Assembly (NCBI RefSeq): GCF_002289455.1
Contig: NZ_NTFS01000015.1
Location: 1-35,230, forward strand
Origin: Brunnivagina elsteri CCALA 953
GTDB lineage: Bacteria > Cyanobacteriota > Cyanobacteriia > Cyanobacteriales > Nostocaceae
Reading direction: 5' to 3'
Length of the DNA stretch: 35,230 nucleotides
Of this stretch, positions 2,954-34,541 are shown piece after piece. Below the pieces are notes generated by a model. It was not told where the DNA came from and searched no databases. It was given only the letters and a program-made list of their open reading frames with translations. A program made the position numbers and the translations under genes. Each line of letters opens with the position of its first letter. Position 1 is the stretch's first letter.

Positions 2954-3277
2954 GTTTCAAGTCCTCGCGGTTCTACTGGCAATTTGTTGGGTTGATTCGG
3001 GCTACTACCGGGTGTTTTGGACGGTAATACTTGCCGATTGTAAGCCGGAAAAGGAAAAGTACTAAAAATCAACTACTAAAAACATACTTCTGCCTCTATC
3101 TTAGAAAAGCGATCGCATAACTGAAGTGTGATTTTAGAGAAACTCAAGAAATTATTCTGTAACAAATGGGTAATTAGGCATTGGGCATTAGGCATTGGGC
3201 ATTGGAAACAAAATTCGCAATACTTCAAGCAATCTAAGGCAAACCACACTATTTCCTATTCCCCATTCCCAAACATC
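2954..3277. other. fbp upstream region with heptamer STRR
   Basis: A gene-free stretch that should contain the fbp promoter; no convincing -35/-10 pair could be fixed by eye. A HIP1 octamer lies near 3110. At 3174-3205 heptamers ttaggca and ttgggca alternate (four copies plus a partial one), the same word family as in the fbp-zwf gap. Confidence 0.5.
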
Positions 3278-15156: not shown

Positions 15157-15774
15157 ATGGATGTTCGGGCAGAGTCAATTTCAAATAGTAATGACACAAA
15201 TAATACCCATGAGACGGGAATCGGCTTAAGTTTTTGGCAGCAAATCAAAGAAGACTGGATTGCCCACGGATGCGATTGGACAAAACCTGGATTTCGTGCG
15301 ATCGCAGTGTATCGTTTCGGAGTTTGGCGAATACAAGTTGAACCAAAGCTGGTGCGTGCCCCCCTTAGCATTTTGTACAGAATGCTGTATCGTAAGGTTC
15401 GTAATAGTTACGGAATTGAATTACCTTACACGGTAAAGTTAGGACGGCGTGTAGTCATTGAACACCAAGGAGCCATAGTTATTCATGGATATAGCACGAT
15501 TGGCGATGAATGTATAATTCGTCAAGGTGTCACTCTGGGAAATCGCTATTTAGAGAAGCCTCTAGCAGCACCTAGATTGGGAAAGCGCGTCAATATCGGT
15601 GCTGGAGCAAAGGTTTTTGGTGATGTGAACATCGGCGATAATGCCAATATTGGAGCTAATGCTGTTGTTTTGCTGGATGTTCCCCCAGGAGCTACAGCAG
15701 TAGGGGTTCCAGCCAAAATTATTGATAAAAAAGAAGAATTCAGAAGTCAGAATTCAGAAGTCAGAATCAATTAA
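15157..15774 (+). CDS. Serine acetyltransferase-like hexapeptide O-acetyltransferase
   Basis: 205 residues ending in a left-handed beta-helix of hexapeptide repeats: VVIEHQGAIVIHGYSTIG, then VNIGAGAKVFGDVNIGDNAN. The family (CysE-like, as in polysaccharide clusters) moves acetyl from acetyl-CoA to a hydroxyl group. The place within this cluster argues for decorating sugars rather than for cysteine synthesis, and the N-terminal part is shorter than in true CysE. The likely catalytic His lies in VIEHQG or VIHGYS. The last 13 residues (EEFRSQNSEVRIN) are encoded by a direct repeat of gaattcagaagtca, so the C-terminus has been extended or replaced by intergenic repeat DNA; the domain proper ends near PAKIIDKK. 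Confidence 0.88.
   Translation: MDVRAESISNSNDTNNTHETGIGLSFWQQIKEDWIAHGCDWTKPGFRAIAVYRFGVWRIQVEPKLVRAPLSILYRMLYRKVRNSYGIELPYTVKLGRRVVIEHQGAIVIHGYSTIGDECIIRQGVTLGNRYLEKPLAAPRLGKRVNIGAGAKVFGDVNIGDNANIGANAVVLLDVPPGATAVGVPAKIIDKKEEFRSQNSEVRIN
15739..15766. repeat. 14-bp tandem repeat forming the acetyltransferase C-terminus
   Basis: Two copies of gaattcagaagtca, an STRR-type sequence, run through the last codons of the acetyltransferase gene. The stop codon follows directly. Confidence 0.75.
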
Positions 15775-15833
15775 GTATGATTTTACACCACACTTAATTG
15801 TAGAGCGCCTTATAGATGCGGGGGTATTAAAAC

Positions 15834-15975
15834 AATTCGCAATTCGCAATTCGTAATTCGCAATTATGTTTTGTAACGGAGAGAAGTTTGTGGGGACGGT
15901 TTCCGTCCACAACACTACCCTAGCCCTTTCTAGGGCGGCTACGCCAACGGGAACGCGAAGCGCGAACGGAGGATT
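15834..15975. repeat. Cluster of STRR and dispersed palindromes
   Basis: This fills most of the 437-bp gap between the acetyltransferase and the next glycosyltransferase. Four heptamers aattcgc (one variant) cover 15834-15861. A hairpin around ggacggtttccgtcc lies at about 15887-15912. A perfect CCCTAG/CTAGGG hairpin is at 15918-15935. Then comes a ggctacgccaacggg / cgcgaagcgcg module typical of cyanobacterial interspersed repeats. From 15976 to 16211 I see no gene; a promoter for the next gene may be there. Confidence 0.7.
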
Positions 15976-26912: not shown

Positions 26913-27036
26913 GGGGAAATAATCGTGAATAAAGGAGGGGAAATAATCGTGAATAAAGGAGGGCAAACAGCCCTTCGGGTGCGTCAGTTTAGCGGGACGG
27001 AAACCGACACCGCTAACTGACTTACCGTTTGCCCCT
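26913..27036. repeat. 24-bp direct repeat followed by a nested stem-loop
   Basis: A 24-bp unit (starting ggggaaataatcgtgaat) is present twice in exact tandem (26913-26936, 26937-26960). It is followed by a nested inverted structure: GGGCAAAC/GTTTGCCC outer arms (26961-26968, 27027-27034), an inner stem with one bulge (26983-26995 with 27010-27021) and small cccttcggg and cggaaaccg hairpins inside. It lies between convergent genes and could terminate transcription in both directions. The outer arms match the hairpin at 22496-22518. Confidence 0.75.
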
Positions 27037-28610: not shown

Positions 28611-28635
28611 AGACGTTCCACCGGAACGTCTCTAC
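28611..28635. repeat. Dispersed palindrome AGACGTTCC-ACC-GGAACGTCT (copy 2)
   Basis: A perfect 9-bp stem with 3-nt loop (28611-28619, 28623-28631), identical to 8388-8408. Its right flank (tctac) supplies the stop codon of the transporter gene, and it sits between that gene and the carotenoid oxygenase gene. Confidence 0.8.
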
Positions 28636-30068
28636 GGTTCGGTTGCTTCTTTTGGTGACTGTTGTAATATTAATTCTGGAACGAATTCGGGTATTAATGA
28701 TTGCTCGTGGGTTTGTCCGATTCCTGGTGGAAATGTACCTGTTGTAGCTTTGGAATCGGCAGCAGGCAACCAATTCAGAAATGGAAGTGGTAGAATAGTA
28801 CTAACATTGGTGATAATTACCAATAAAGCGAGGTTATCAAAGTTACTTTCGGTAATTCCCATTAAGTGCATCAATCCCGCACCTAATTCGTAAGAAAGCA
28901 ATCCCGCCAAATTGGAAACTGACATTAATAAAGCGAAAAAAGTCGCTTCCACACCAGGAGGACATAACCTTGCCGCAAGTACCAATACTGGCATATAAGC
29001 AATTTGTCCCATGACTGTGAGAACCAAACTATCACCCAAACTAAACCAATGGTCATCGATACCTAAACTACGGTTGGTATGGGTCACTAGTAGTAACATG
29101 GTCATTCCCAAAACTGCCGAAAGAACCGTACTCCAGCCAAAAATAACCCGAAAGGGAACAGTTTTCAGAAATCTTTGAAATATCCAAACTCCTGCCAATG
29201 AAGCAATACTTGTAACTAAACGTACTCTTCCTAAAAATTCGGGTTCAAAGTGCAATTCGTTGGTGGTGAAAAAGAAAAAGGCAGAATCTGCTGTTGGTGT
29301 AGCTTGCCAGAGAAAAACAAATGCTGTGGGTAGCCAAATCGCTCTTTGGGTTAAGGCTTGACGGAGTTGCTTTAATTGATGTTTGATAGGGACTGATTCG
29401 ACTTCAGGCTGATTTTTATCTTTGCTGATGGGTGTTTCCGCAATTAACCAAGCGACAGCAGAGACAATCAGGGGAAAAGAAGCGGTAATTCCAAAAATGG
29501 TGCGGGTACTGAAATGTTGCAGCAACATTCCACTAAAATAAGCAGTAATTAATCCACCCAGAGCAGAAGCACCCCAACATAGGGATTGTAGCGAACCTGC
29601 TGACTCTTGGGATTCGCCTCTAGCCCGTTCCACAACTAGGGAATCAACAATGACATCGCTAACCGCAACAGAGAGAGAACCTAATGCGATCGCAATTGTT
29701 GCTGCTACGGAAGTATTAACTACTGTTGCCAGGAATATCCAGGAAATTGTCCCTAGCAATCCCGACAAAATCAAGTAAGGACGACGACGATAGCCAAATA
29801 TGGGTAAACCGTCGGAAATAAAGCCAAATAAGGGCTTGATAATCCAAGGTAGGGCAACAATCCCTAAAAGTGCGGAAACCTGCGCTGGACTTAGCAGCAG
29901 TTCATCTTTGAGAAAGAAGCTGACGGCTAAACGCGCCAACCCCAAGATACCTTGGACAAAGTAAACAGTCAAAATCGCGATTAATTCGGCACTTGGTTCG
30001 TTACCGAAGAAAATTTTTTCTTTGACTGATTCTTTTACCTTGGACAAACTAGAGGAGGAAACCAGCAT
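28632..30068 (-). CDS. BT1 / folate-biopterin transporter family membrane protein
   Basis: 478 residues with about 12 membrane segments, MFS-like. It matches the plant/cyanobacterial FBT group (Synechocystis slr0642 type, for which folate transport was shown). Signatures: VYFVQGILGLARLAVSFF, LPWIIKPLFGFISDGLPIFGYRRRPY and SDVIVDSLVVERAR. Located in the cytoplasmic membrane. The substrate cannot be read from sequence; family members differ. The start at 30068 has no visible Shine-Dalgarno. The C-terminal tail after the last membrane segment is polar (EFVPELILQQSPKEATEP), and its stop codon TAG is part of the dispersed palindrome's flank, so the original end may have been different. Upstream of the carotenoid oxygenase in the same direction. 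Confidence 0.9.
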   Translation of the reverse strand: MLVSSSSLSKVKESVKEKIFFGNEPSAELIAILTVYFVQGILGLARLAVSFFLKDELLLSPAQVSALLGIVALPWIIKPLFGFISDGLPIFGYRRRPYLILSGLLGTISWIFLATVVNTSVAATIAIALGSLSVAVSDVIVDSLVVERARGESQESAGSLQSLCWGASALGGLITAYFSGMLLQHFSTRTIFGITASFPLIVSAVAWLIAETPISKDKNQPEVESVPIKHQLKQLRQALTQRAIWLPTAFVFLWQATPTADSAFFFFTTNELHFEPEFLGRVRLVTSIASLAGVWIFQRFLKTVPFRVIFGWSTVLSAVLGMTMLLLVTHTNRSLGIDDHWFSLGDSLVLTVMGQIAYMPVLVLAARLCPPGVEATFFALLMSVSNLAGLLSYELGAGLMHLMGITESNFDNLALLVIITNVSTILPLPFLNWLPAADSKATTGTFPPGIGQTHEQSLIPEFVPELILQQSPKEATEP

Positions 30069-30234
30069 TGATGAATATTTTTTAAGATTTATGACTTTTC
30101 TATCATATCTAGTTTTTCCAGAGAACTGTACGGGGGTAGGAATATGTCAGGGGATTTTGAAGGGGTGAGAGAAGCAGTAGAATGAAGAAATAATATGGAA
30201 ACGGTACAAACATAGCGACTGAAGAAGTTGATTT

Positions 30235-30507
30235 ATGCAAACAATCCTCTTAAGCCACGAAGAAGTCGCGCGACGTGCAAAATTAATTTATGAAAGTAGT
30301 ATTCGTCAACATGTCGAATCCGTAGATAACATCGGCAAAATGGTAATTATCGATATCGAGACAGGTGATTATAAAGTCGAGCAAAATGGTTTGCAAGCTG
30401 CACGTCATTTAAGCGAGAAGTATCCTCATGCCCGACTTTTTGGGATTAGAATTGGCTACAATGTAGCTGCTTCTTTGGGTGGTGTCATGGAGCGTGTAAA
30501 CACTTGA
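30235..30507 (+). CDS. Small conserved-looking cyanobacterial protein, first gene of a coupled pair
   Basis: 90 residues, soluble, with no membrane segment. N-terminal helix LSHEEVARRAKLIYESSIR, a strand-rich centre (KMVIIDIETGDYKVEQNG), another helix (LQAARHLSEKYP) and a C-terminal FGIRIGYNVAASLGGVMER. I recall similar ~80-90-residue proteins in cyanobacteria next to small clan-AA aspartic protease-like genes, in an arrangement often taken for a toxin-antitoxin-like pair; this is memory of the family, not a search result. The TGA stop overlaps a TTG start of a second, truncated frame (30504), a sign of translational coupling. The ATG at 30235 has only a weak GAAG upstream. Its own frame is intact. 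Confidence 0.75.
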   Translation: MQTILLSHEEVARRAKLIYESSIRQHVESVDNIGKMVIIDIETGDYKVEQNGLQAARHLSEKYPHARLFGIRIGYNVAASLGGVMERVNT

Positions 30508-30584
30508 TATCCGGTACTGTAAGTGATAGACACGCTACTGTTGCTGTAGTTTTTCGCCTTCCAAACTACTTCCGGAATAGTTAA
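30504..30584 (+). pseudogene. Truncated second gene (clan-AA aspartic protease-like N-terminus) cut by the repeat array
   Basis: From a TTG overlapping the upstream stop codon the frame reads LISGTVSDRHATVAVVFRLPN and then runs into the repeat unit (YFRNS) and a TAA at 30582. The first 21 residues resemble the start of small cyanobacterial clan-AA aspartic proteases (M-I-x-G-x-V then a beta strand), which would continue to a DTG active-site motif. That motif is missing because the tandem array begins here. I found no continuation after the array. The identification rests on a short stretch and recalled family features, so it is tentative; the abrupt change from gene-like sequence to repeat is directly visible. 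Confidence 0.5.
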
Positions 30585-32150
30585 ATTCAAGATGGTTTAT
30601 AGTGCGATCGCAAACTGTTCCGACTCCGGAATAGTTAAATTTGGGTTGGTTTATGGTGCTTACGCAAACTGTTCCAACTTCGGAATAGTTAAATTTGGGA
30701 TTGGTTTATAGTGCGATCGCAAACTGTTGCGACTCCGGAATAGTTGGATTTGGGATTGGTTTATAGTGCGATCGCAAACTGTTCCAACTTCGGAATAGTT
30801 AAATTTGGAATTGGTTTATAGCGCGATCGCAAACTGTTCCGCTTCCGGAATAGTTAAATTTGGGATGGGTTTATAGTGCGATCGCAAACTGTTGCGACTC
30901 CGGAATAGTTAAATTTGGATTGGTTTGATAGTGCTTACGCAAACTGTTCCAACTTCGGAATAGTTAAATTTGGAATTGGTTTATGATGCTTACGCAAACT
31001 GTTCCAACTTCGGAATAGTTGGATTTGGATTGGTTTGATAGCGCGATCGCAAACTGTTCCGACTCCGGAATAGTTAAATTCAAGATGGTTTATAGTGCGA
31101 TCGCAAACCGTTCCGACTCCGGAATAGTTAAATTTGGGATGGGTTGGTTGTGCGATCGCAAACTGTTCCGACTCCGGAATAGTTAAATTTGGAATTGGTT
31201 TATAGTGCTTACGCAAACTGTTCCGATTCCGGAATAGTTAAATTTGGGTTGATTTTTTTAGTGCTTACGCAAACTGTTCCAACTTCGGAATAGTTAAATT
31301 TGGAATTGGTTTGATAGTGTGATCGCAAACTGTTCCAACTTCGGAATAGTTAAATTTGGAATTGGTTTATAGCGCGATCGCAAACTGTTCCGCTTCCGGA
31401 ATAGTTAAATTTGGGATGGGTTTATAGTGCGATCGCAAACTGTTCCAACTTCGGAATAGTTGGATTTGGGATGGGTTTAATAGTGCGATCGCAAACTGTT
31501 CCGCTTCCGGAATAGTTAAATTTGGATTGGTTTGATAGTGCTTACGCAAACTGTTGCGACTCCGGAATAGTTGGATTTGGGATTGGTTTATAGTGTGATC
31601 GCAAACTGTTCCAACTTCGGAATAGTTGGATTTGGGATGGGTTTAATAGTGCGATCGCAAACTGTTCCGCTTCCGGAATAGTTAAATTTGGATTGGTTTG
31701 ATAGTGCTTACGCAAACTGTTGCGACTCCGGAATAGTTGGATTTGGGATTGGTTTATAGTGTGATCGCAAACTGTTCCAACTTCGGAATAGTTGGATTTG
31801 GGATGGGTTTAATAGTGCGATCGCAAACTGTTCCGCTTCCGGAATAGTTAAATTTGGATTGGTTTGATAGTGCTTACGCAAACTGTTGCGACTCCGGAAT
31901 AGTTGGATTTGGGATTGGTTTATAGTGTGATCGCAAACCGTTGCGACTTTGGAATAGTTAAATTTGGGATTGGTTTGATAGTGCGATCGCAAACTGTTGC
32001 AACTTCGGAATAGTTGGATTTGAGGTGGGTTTATAGTGCTTACGCAAACTGTTGCGACTCCGGAATAGTTGGATTTGGGATTGGTTTATAGTGCGATCGC
32101 AAACTGTTCCGCTTCCGGAATAGTTGGATTTGGGATGGGTTTTGCGACTT
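30567..32150. repeat. Long tandem repeat array, 29 copies of a ~55-bp unit
   Basis: The core cggaatagtt occurs 29 times between 30573 and 32125 with spacings of about 54-56 bp (mean 55.1). Each unit has cggaatagtt, then aaattt or ggattt, a variable ggattggtttatag part, a core linker, and aaactgttcc. Adjoining arms form an imperfect palindrome: AACTGTTCCG, 3-5 nt, CGGAATAGTT (10 pairs with one G-U as RNA). By eye the 28 linkers contain HIP1 GCGATCGC 15 times, GCTTACGC 9 times and a TGATCGC variant 4 times. Copies differ by only a few substitutions. It resembles, but is longer than, the 37-bp LTRR repeats of Nostocales. It is not CRISPR because the linkers are not unique. Confidence 0.95.
31441..31938. 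repeat. 166-bp higher-order repeat inside the array (3 copies)
   Basis: Three-unit blocks recur with an exact period of 166 bp: cores at 31452/31618/31784, 31508/31674/31840 and 31563/31729/31895. The blocks share the order HIP1, GCTTACGC, TGATCGC linkers and appear almost identical, so they are recent duplications. Confidence 0.85.
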
Positions 32151-32414
32151 TGTGGGATGTTTCCGAATGAATTATTCAGGGTTTTGTCGTTTTCAGAGAA
32201 ACCCAGTTTCTGAGTGAATAATTTGGGGATTATATAAAAATACATTTACTAAACCATGTTCGGGTATCCGAACATTCCAAAATGAAAACGTAATGACTAC
32301 AGTTAAAGAATAGTAAAAAGTGAATGGTTAATGGTATTGCGTCCAACAGACAATACCCAACAACTAAGAATCAATACTAAACTAAGTATTTACTTAACAA
32401 CTCACACAAAATCT
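32151..32414. other. Region between the array and the M3 peptidase, with two structured elements
   Basis: No gene. At 32170-32223 a 9-bp outer stem AATTATTCA/TGAATAATT encloses an AGAAAC-CCA-GTTTCT hairpin (32197-32211), a familiar cyanobacterial interspersed repeat. At 32256-32275 there is a perfect palindrome ATGTTCGG-GTAT-CCGAACAT, about 140 bp before the peptidase start, which could be an operator or a hairpin. The peptidase promoter should lie here. Confidence 0.5.
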
Positions 32415-34541
32415 ATGACAGAAAGTGCCATTCAATCAAAATCCAGCAATCCTTTATTAATTGGTTCGGGTTTGCCAAGTTTTACAGAGATTAAGCCAGA
32501 ACATGTAGTTCCAGCAGTAAATGAGTTAATTAGCCAACTAGAAAGCGAACTGACACAACTAGAAAGCAATGTCGAAGCAACTTGGACAGGCTTAGTCGAA
32601 CCGCTCGAAAAAATTAGCGATCGCATATACTGGACTTGGGGTATTGTCAGTCATCTGATGGGTGTAAAAAATAGCGATGAACTCCGCAAAGCTTACGAAA
32701 CTGTACAACCCTTGGTAGTTCAGTTTTCCAATAAACTCAGCCAAAGTCAACCCATTTACAACGCATTTAAATCTCTTCGTAATAGTAATAATTGGTCAAA
32801 ACTCGAACCCGCACAACAGCGCATCGTTGACTCGGCAATTCGCGATGCGGAACTTTCTGGTGTGGGTTTGCAAGGAGAGGCAAAAGAACGTTTTAATGCA
32901 ATTCAAATGGAATTAGCAGAACTTTCCACCAAATTCTCGAATAATGTTCTTGATGCTACAAAAGCGTTTACTTTAAAACTAACTAGTAAAGAAGAAATTG
33001 CCGGATTACCACCGAGTTTACTGAGTCTTGCTGCCCAAATTGCCCGAAGTACGGGAGATGGAGAAAGCGATAAAAATGCGACTCCCGAAACTGGTCCTTG
33101 GGTAATTACACTCGATGCACCCTGCTATGGACCCTTTTTACAACATAGTACCCGTCGCGATTTGCGCGAAAAATTATACCGAGCTTATATTACCCGTGCC
33201 TCTACTGGAGAACTGGATAACAATCCACTAATAGAACGAATTTTAGGATTACGGCAAGAACTAGCAGAATTATTAGGTTACAAAAAATACGCTGAAGTTA
33301 GTCTTGCCACTAAAATGGCTCCCAACGTCGAAGCTGTCGGAAATTTATTGGAAGAGCTACGCAGTTCGAGTTTCAATGCCGCAATTAAAGAATTAGAGGA
33401 ACTCAAAGCCTTTGCTACATCGAAAGGTGCTTCTGAAGCAATGGATTTGAAACACTGGGATATTAGTTTTTGGGCAGAACGTCAACGCGAAGCTAAATTT
33501 AATTTTACCGACGAAGAATTACGTCCTTATTTCCCCCTTCCCCAAGTTCTTGATGGTTTATTTGGTTTGGTCAAACGCTTGTTTGGTGTAACTGTTACCC
33601 CTGCTGATGGACAAGCTCCTATTTGGCAGGAAGACGTGGGTTACTTCCAAATCGCCGATGAAACTGGCGTACCTATAGCTTACTTCTATCTTGACCTCTA
33701 TAGTCGTCCAGGGGAAAAGCGTGGTGGTGCTTGGATGGATAGTTGCATTAACCGAGCAAAATTGGTGGAAAATGGGAAGATTTCAACCCGTTTACCTGTA
33801 GCTTATTTAATCTGTAACCAAACTCCACCGATTGATGGCAAACCCAGCTTAATGACATTCTACGAAGTTGAAACCCTGTTCCACGAGTTTGGACATGGTT
33901 TACAGCACATGCTCACCAAGGTTGACTATACGAGTGCGGCTGGTATTAATAATGTGGAATGGGATGCGGTAGAATTACCAAGCCAATTTATGGAAAATTG
34001 GTGCTACGAAAGTCGAACATTGTTTGGGATGGCAAAGCATTACGAAACAGGGGAAACCTTACCAGAACATTACTATGAGAAATTGCTTGCTGCTAAAAAT
34101 TATATGAGTGGTAGCGGGATGTTACGACAAATTCACTTTAGTGTTGTGGATGTGGAATTGCATAATAGTTATTCCCCTGGTGGTAATCAAACAGCAGCAG
34201 AGATGAGGAATGCGATCGCACAAAAAACGACTGCGATCGCACCACTTCCTGAAGATGCCTTTTTATGTGCGTTTAGCCACATTTTTGCTGGTGGATATGC
34301 GGCAGGATATTACAGTTATAAATGGGCAGAAGTATTGAGTGCTGATGCTTTTGCGGCATTTGAAGAAGTTGGGTTAGAAAATGAGACTGCTGTTAAAGAT
34401 ACAGGGAAACGCTACAGAGAAACCGTTCTTGCCCTTGGTGGCAGTAAACACCCAATGGAAGTATTTAGAGATTTCCGAGGACGGGAACCTAACACAGAGC
34501 CGTTACTGAGACATAATGGTTTAGCGATCGCATCTACTTAA
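32415..34541 (+). CDS. prlC: M3 family oligopeptidase (oligopeptidase A type)
   Basis: A cytosolic zinc metallopeptidase that degrades short peptides, including cleaved signal peptides. From the ATG at 32415 it has 708 residues, normal for the PrlC/OpdA branch. The zinc site is complete: H490-E-F-G-H494 in FHEFGHGLQHM and Glu520 in DAVELPSQFMENW. The N-terminus NPLLIGSGLPSFTEIKPEHVVPA is family-typical; an ATG at 32331 would add 28 unrelated residues. The C-terminal FSHIFAGGYAAGYYSYKWAEVLSADAF holds the substrate-contact tyrosines. It stands alone, after the repeat array and convergent with psaK, sharing a terminator. The gene symbol follows the E. coli homologue. Confidence 0.95.
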   Translation: MTESAIQSKSSNPLLIGSGLPSFTEIKPEHVVPAVNELISQLESELTQLESNVEATWTGLVEPLEKISDRIYWTWGIVSHLMGVKNSDELRKAYETVQPLVVQFSNKLSQSQPIYNAFKSLRNSNNWSKLEPAQQRIVDSAIRDAELSGVGLQGEAKERFNAIQMELAELSTKFSNNVLDATKAFTLKLTSKEEIAGLPPSLLSLAAQIARSTGDGESDKNATPETGPWVITLDAPCYGPFLQHSTRRDLREKLYRAYITRASTGELDNNPLIERILGLRQELAELLGYKKYAEVSLATKMAPNVEAVGNLLEELRSSSFNAAIKELEELKAFATSKGASEAMDLKHWDISFWAERQREAKFNFTDEELRPYFPLPQVLDGLFGLVKRLFGVTVTPADGQAPIWQEDVGYFQIADETGVPIAYFYLDLYSRPGEKRGGAWMDSCINRAKLVENGKISTRLPVAYLICNQTPPIDGKPSLMTFYEVETLFHEFGHGLQHMLTKVDYTSAAGINNVEWDAVELPSQFMENWCYESRTLFGMAKHYETGETLPEHYYEKLLAAKNYMSGSGMLRQIHFSVVDVELHNSYSPGGNQTAAEMRNAIAQKTTAIAPLPEDAFLCAFSHIFAGGYAAGYYSYKWAEVLSADAFAAFEEVGLENETAVKDTGKRYRETVLALGGSKHPMEVFRDFRGREPNTEPLLRHNGLAIAST

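Follow-up and report, generated by a model that had tools for sequence, protein, structure and literature searches.

An intergenic tandem array in Brunnivagina elsteri built on a 24-nt palindromic core that recurs in Calothrix-type Nostocaceae

What kind of repeat fills the space between two genes in Brunnivagina elsteri CCALA 953, and at what level, RNA or DNA, does its palindrome matter? The array lies in a stretch of 35,230 nucleotides (contig NZ_NTFS01000015.1, positions 1 to 35,230), here called the window. An initial annotation had read it as a possibly undescribed family of long tandem repeats, able to form a chain of hairpins in RNA or cruciforms in DNA. The features of the region, in window positions, are the following.

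28632..30068, minus strand: BT1/MFS transporter, left of the 90-aa gene (Pfam)
30235..30507, plus strand: 90-aa conserved cyanobacterial protein with no Pfam family, upstream of the array (ORF list, Pfam)
30571..32142, plus strand: tandem array of a ~55-bp unit, 28.5 copies (TRF and unit parsing)
Within 30571..32142, plus strand: unit made up of a 24-nt dyad core and a 30–32-bp linker (unit parsing)
30570..30582, plus strand: half core (TTCCGGAATAGTT) at the array start (pattern scan)
30613..30636, plus strand: first full core, AACTGTTCC-GACTCC-GGAATAGTT, one of 28 such cores up to 32125
30583..32101, no strand: linker octamers, namely HIP1 (GCGATCGC) 15 times, GCTTACGC nine times and TGATCGC variants four times (unit parsing)
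31328..31437, plus strand: two-unit block D-E, identical to the units at 30777-30886 (unit order)
31438..31935, plus strand: three-unit block N-O-P of 166 bp in three exact copies (unit order)
32415..34541, plus strand: M3-family oligopeptidase, downstream of the array (Pfam PF01432, PF19310)

TRF described the array by a period of 55 with 28.5 copies and 84% matches, and by a second period of 166 with 9.5 copies. The motif GGAATAGTT occurs 29 times at distances of 54–56 bp, which bears out the 29 cores and the period first described; full 24-nt cores number 28. A scan with TTCCGGAATAGTT, allowing up to two mismatches, returned 28 matches against 1.0 expected. Eighteen of the 27 parsed units are distinct in sequence, and they follow one another in the order A B C D E F G H I J K L M D E N O P N O P N O P Q R C, in which the threefold N-O-P is a recent segmental duplication. 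The linker columns have a mean conservation of ~87%. At one position of the unit, GCGATCGC (HIP1) and GCTTACGC take turns; since GCTTACGC occurs only a single time in the rest of the window, this alternation looks like block replacement and not like point mutation.

A coding role of the array was considered and rejected: the minus strand holds ORFs of 93–95 aa starting with TTG or ATG, and most unit lengths are not divisible by three. Neither Rfam, searched with the whole window, nor the plasmid and viral collections gave a match. Elsewhere in the window, TRF located tandem repeats of the STRR heptamer type at 1572-1628, 3167-3205 and 15735-15865, and a 24-bp tandem repeat (2.3 copies, 96% match) at 26913-26967.

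That the array was created by the assembly is hardly credible. The genome is admittedly a draft of 801 contigs, in which a second array is split by contig ends (C303/C508), but a unit diversity of 18 in 27 and the presence of the same array type at the same place in an independent assembly (G002, below) speak against an artefact. The copy number taken from such a draft, above all the threefold N-O-P, may nevertheless be a wrong count.

Of 60 relatives, 39 encode the 90-aa protein, often more than once, and the window's genome has four copies. In the sister genome G002 (Calothrix sp. CSU_2_0), the transporter and the M3 peptidase, whose start in the window was picked by eye against orthologues, flank approximately 3.5 (3–4) copies of this 55-bp type of unit, and no 90-aa gene is present at this orthologous site. 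Homology between the two loci stops on the left at 30167 and restarts on the right at 32258. In a third genome of the genus, G001, both the array and the transporter are missing next to the M3 peptidase, and the array and its gene order therefore probably arose within the genus. The copy number at the orthologous site is 28 in the window versus 3–4 in G002, which, together with the exact multi-unit duplications, indicates that copy number changes. As a repeat family, however, the 55-bp unit did not hold up: a search of its own genome and 60 relatives found G002 plus two matches shorter than 30 bp, so that the unit is confined to the window site and to the orthologous position in a single sister species.

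The element that does recur is the 24-nt core, AACTGTTCC-N6-GGAATAGTT, which forms approximately ten independent tandem arrays in Calothrix-type Nostocaceae. Nearly all of them are intergenic; their periods are 37, 39, 48, 55, 64/75, 76 and 77+139 bp. Linkers are mostly unrelated between arrays, orthologous arrays excepted, and most of the other arrays have linkers devoid of HIP1. The following lie outside the window.

Contigs C303 and C508 of the window's own genome: 48-bp-period array, same core, other linker
Genome G083: array with a period of 37 bp
Genome G033: arrays with periods of 64/75 and 76 bp
Genome G214: arrays with periods of 39, 76 and 77+139 bp

C303 and C508 both align to one G002 locus, and units of the C303 type are also found at a third locus (C258 / G002:C284). 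Orthologous 76-bp arrays stand directly after the same ~556-aa gene in G214 (C1:1068873-1070095) and G221 (C280:858-1109), with 15 versus 4 copies. The 39-bp array of G214, with a unit of 13 codons, has one open frame and may have a coding role.

Among 218 family genomes, the strict pattern AACTGTTCC-N{3,8}-GGAATAGTT matched 10, and its reversed control none; the centre was exactly 6 nt in every strict match, although 3–8 were allowed. When up to three mismatches were accepted, the core exceeded the control (14–99 versus 0–6) in all eight g76 genomes and in G000, G002, G033, G082 and G083, and no excess was seen in distant genera. A scan of 84,980 species confined the arrays to Calothrix and an unassigned Nostocaceae genome. 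Calothrix parasitica NIES-267 carries three of them. Single matches elsewhere were at chance level except inside Richelia and Calothrix genes, those outside cyanobacteria agreeing with our own estimate that 18 fixed bases would match ~7 times by chance in the collection. Exact core matches inside coding sequence (peptide ..ETIPTSEQLHTYGSLSELYG..) occur in several g76 species (L067, L059, L074); they exceed random expectation, but we read them as coding coincidences and kept them out of the array count.

In the window's genome the core was found in arrays only, the solitary near-matches that were checked falling within genes. Intergenic singlets are almost lacking there, and no regulon-like set of sites was seen. 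In some cores the 6-nt centre is replaced by ~25–50 bp with further hairpins, for instance CACGTTCGCGTAGCGTGTCCGAAGGACTCAGTGACTCCTTTGGAGTAT; such enlarged centres represent nested insertions, within the core, of a different small palindromic repeat. Their approximate positions are as follows.

L050:455-545 (G000 C303): hairpin-bearing centre
L051:3140-3200 (C508): hairpin-bearing centre
L175:2310-2360 (G002 C229): hairpin-bearing centre

Every unit junction had been credited with a 10-bp stem at the outset. This applies to about 11 of the 28 cores, which allow such a stem around a 4-nt loop (one of them with a C/A mismatch); nine have a 9-bp stem and a 6-nt loop, and in the remaining eight (TTGC...GGAA) a C-to-G change in one arm places a G/G mismatch in the stem. 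RNA folding gave no simple hairpin for single units with this mismatch. One G/T is kept in the stem by all 28 cores, so that as RNA only the plus strand pairs fully and forms the stronger hairpin (−14.7 kcal/mol, against −9.8 for the minus strand). On either strand, a 991-nt stretch of the array folded more stably than its shuffles (z = −11.4 and −8.7). A search for symmetric patterns showed that the arrays retain one G/T or C/A position and not a perfect stem.

These properties raise the possibility of an RNA element, either a hairpin chain in the 3′ region of the 90-aa gene or in the M3 gene's 5′ region, or else a small RNA in repeated copies resembling NsiR1. The G-U strand is here the strand of both flanking genes, the plus-strand hairpins are stable, and NsiR1 sets the precedent for tandem sRNA arrays in Nostocales (PMC9045159). 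Like NsiR1, the array has near-identical units in tandem, belongs to a heterocystous cyanobacterium and carries TCCGGA, which is present in 18 of the 29 window units; the trait of NsiR1 itself is heterocyst-specific transcripts of ~60 nt. We rejected identity with NsiR1, as hetF is not adjacent, the neighbours being the 90-aa protein, the M3 peptidase and the BT1/MFS transporter. Furthermore, there is no −10 at the DIF1 distance (TCCGGA as −35, 17-bp spacer, extended −10), the nearest −10-like TATAGT lying 22 nt from TCCGGA, and the G002 cores are devoid of TCCGGA.

The wider evidence also makes an RNA element unlikely. Across the arrays, the G/T strand runs with the neighbouring genes in some cases and is opposite or mixed in others. 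No covariation was found in 64 distinct cores, which contained one double change versus 6.3 in shuffles. Stems are mismatched in 8 of the 28 window units, and intrinsic terminators (a GC hairpin followed by a T run) were at chance level in the array region (3 found, 2.5 expected). Thus, the RNA hairpin chain first envisaged is possible on paper, but with neither covariation nor a constant strand relative to genes behind it. The DNA cruciforms proposed alongside it are unlikely to form from imperfect stems of 9–10 bp.

Within the window array, the arms showed 0.032 differences per site, compared with 0.289 for the 6-nt centre and 0.186 for the linker, and when the arm mask was rotated along the unit, the real position was the only one of 56 to reach such conservation. 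In most of the other arrays that hold enough units, the arms were less divergent than the linker, a contrast biased by the choice of their cores by similarity; the window array, in which no unit was skipped, is unaffected. In the short G002 array (3 units), the arms were no better conserved than the linker. Since arms and linker are copied together and the arms yet diverge less, something constrains the arm sequence inside the array. Conserved arms, a free centre of fixed length, and the lack of covariation and of a fixed strand would suit an RNA hairpin less well than a dyad read as DNA.

The same measurements bear on whether the array could be a neutral or selfish minisatellite, that is, slippage-prone DNA with no recognised site in which the hairpin merely promotes slippage. 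Such an origin would agree with the large copy-number gap between the sister species, with the lack of an array at the G001 M3 gene, and with the exact recent block duplications (N-O-P three times, D-E twice). We consider it rather unlikely, because the co-amplified arms diverge approximately six times less than the linker and the same core is found in unrelated arrays and genera. Moreover, template-directed correction of the palindrome would erase the G/T asymmetry, yet every one of the 28 units keeps it.

How does the array relate to repeats already described? It is neither STRR nor LTRR, as had been noted: the period is 55 bp, compared with 7 bp for STRR. We take LTRR to be a CRISPR-type repeat, and a CRISPR review cites the LTRR paper (Masepohl 1996). 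To call the array longer in period than LTRR is consequently to compare unlike things. The two share a name and a general idea, a long tandem repeat, but in the CRISPR-like LTRR the spacers differ, whereas the linkers here belong to the repeat, and the pattern of a constant repeat with unrelated spacers is missing. The sequences differ as well: the LTRR core of Anabaena PCC 7120, aaatccctatcagggattgaaac (PMC2408588), had no match in the array with up to eight substitutions. HIP1 is a genome-wide octamer that happens to lie in the linkers, and the array core is a separate palindrome.

Clusters of REP elements that iterate together with flanking DNA have been described (PMC3733652, PMC3116915). 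The present core resembles REP, BIME and REPIN elements in being a small intergenic palindrome iterated in tandem with flanking DNA, in about ten arrays, and differs from them in that the window's genome holds it in arrays, not as singlets or doublets. A REPIN-like non-autonomous element that depends for its mobility on a Y1 transposase (IS200/IS605 or RAYT type) is very unlikely here. A small, lineage-restricted palindrome at many loci would be expected of it, and the C303-type units at a third locus and the hairpins inserted into core centres also suggest mobility. Against this, the array contains no GTAG, CTAC, CGTC or GACG as a REP tag at the stem foot, and intergenic singlets are nearly absent. 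Y1_Tnp was present in 20 of 20 genomes, with counts that do not track the core: the window's genome has two weak matches, and G008 has 17 and no core family.

Elhai et al. 2008 reportedly described small dispersed repeats of Nostoc, SDR1-8, as 21–27-nt hairpins in Nostocales with other hairpins nested inside, and compensatory mutations are said to support the hairpin in some of these families. The 24-nt core falls within that size range and likewise has nested hairpins; it differs in being tandem and not dispersed and in showing no compensatory changes, SDR1-8 being compared here by description. No Nostoc record was among the exact core matches in the 84,980-species scan. The closest kinds are the SDR hairpins of Nostoc and those REP clusters that iterate along with flanking DNA.

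The explanation that we favour, with about even confidence, is an intergenic minisatellite built on a lineage-restricted palindromic element that is recognised as DNA and was amplified with its local flank. One 24-bp element, AACTGTTCC-N6-GGAATAGTT, would have been amplified in tandem together with 30–32 bp of local flanking DNA, and copy number would then shift when replication slips or units recombine unequally. The arms would stay near-constant, as observed, while linker and centre drift, most likely because a putative host protein recognises them as DNA in a REP/BIME-like manner. The lack of covariation and of a constant strand relative to flanking genes is the reason for favouring DNA recognition over RNA. 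No specific gene-regulatory role is implied, since the core exists in this genome only in arrays. Counting against this explanation, 8 of the 28 units tolerate the C-to-G change in one arm.

Thus, the locus is one expanding and shrinking array of a small palindromic repeat family, not a new kind of system. The array is ordinary in kind and its sequence apparently undescribed, SDR1-8 being set apart by description only. A bolder and quite improbable proposal is that a host factor reading AACTGTTCC-N6-GGAATAGTT drives or protects the amplification in tandem of any DNA that two cores enclose; if this were true, one short motif would have seeded minisatellites of differing period across a whole Calothrix lineage. 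Arrays of this type break assemblies, and they could serve as variable-number markers for Calothrix. The combination of a constant core with array-specific linkers separates the DNA that is kept from the DNA that is carried along, and gives a handle on how a palindromic repeat becomes a minisatellite in cyanobacteria.
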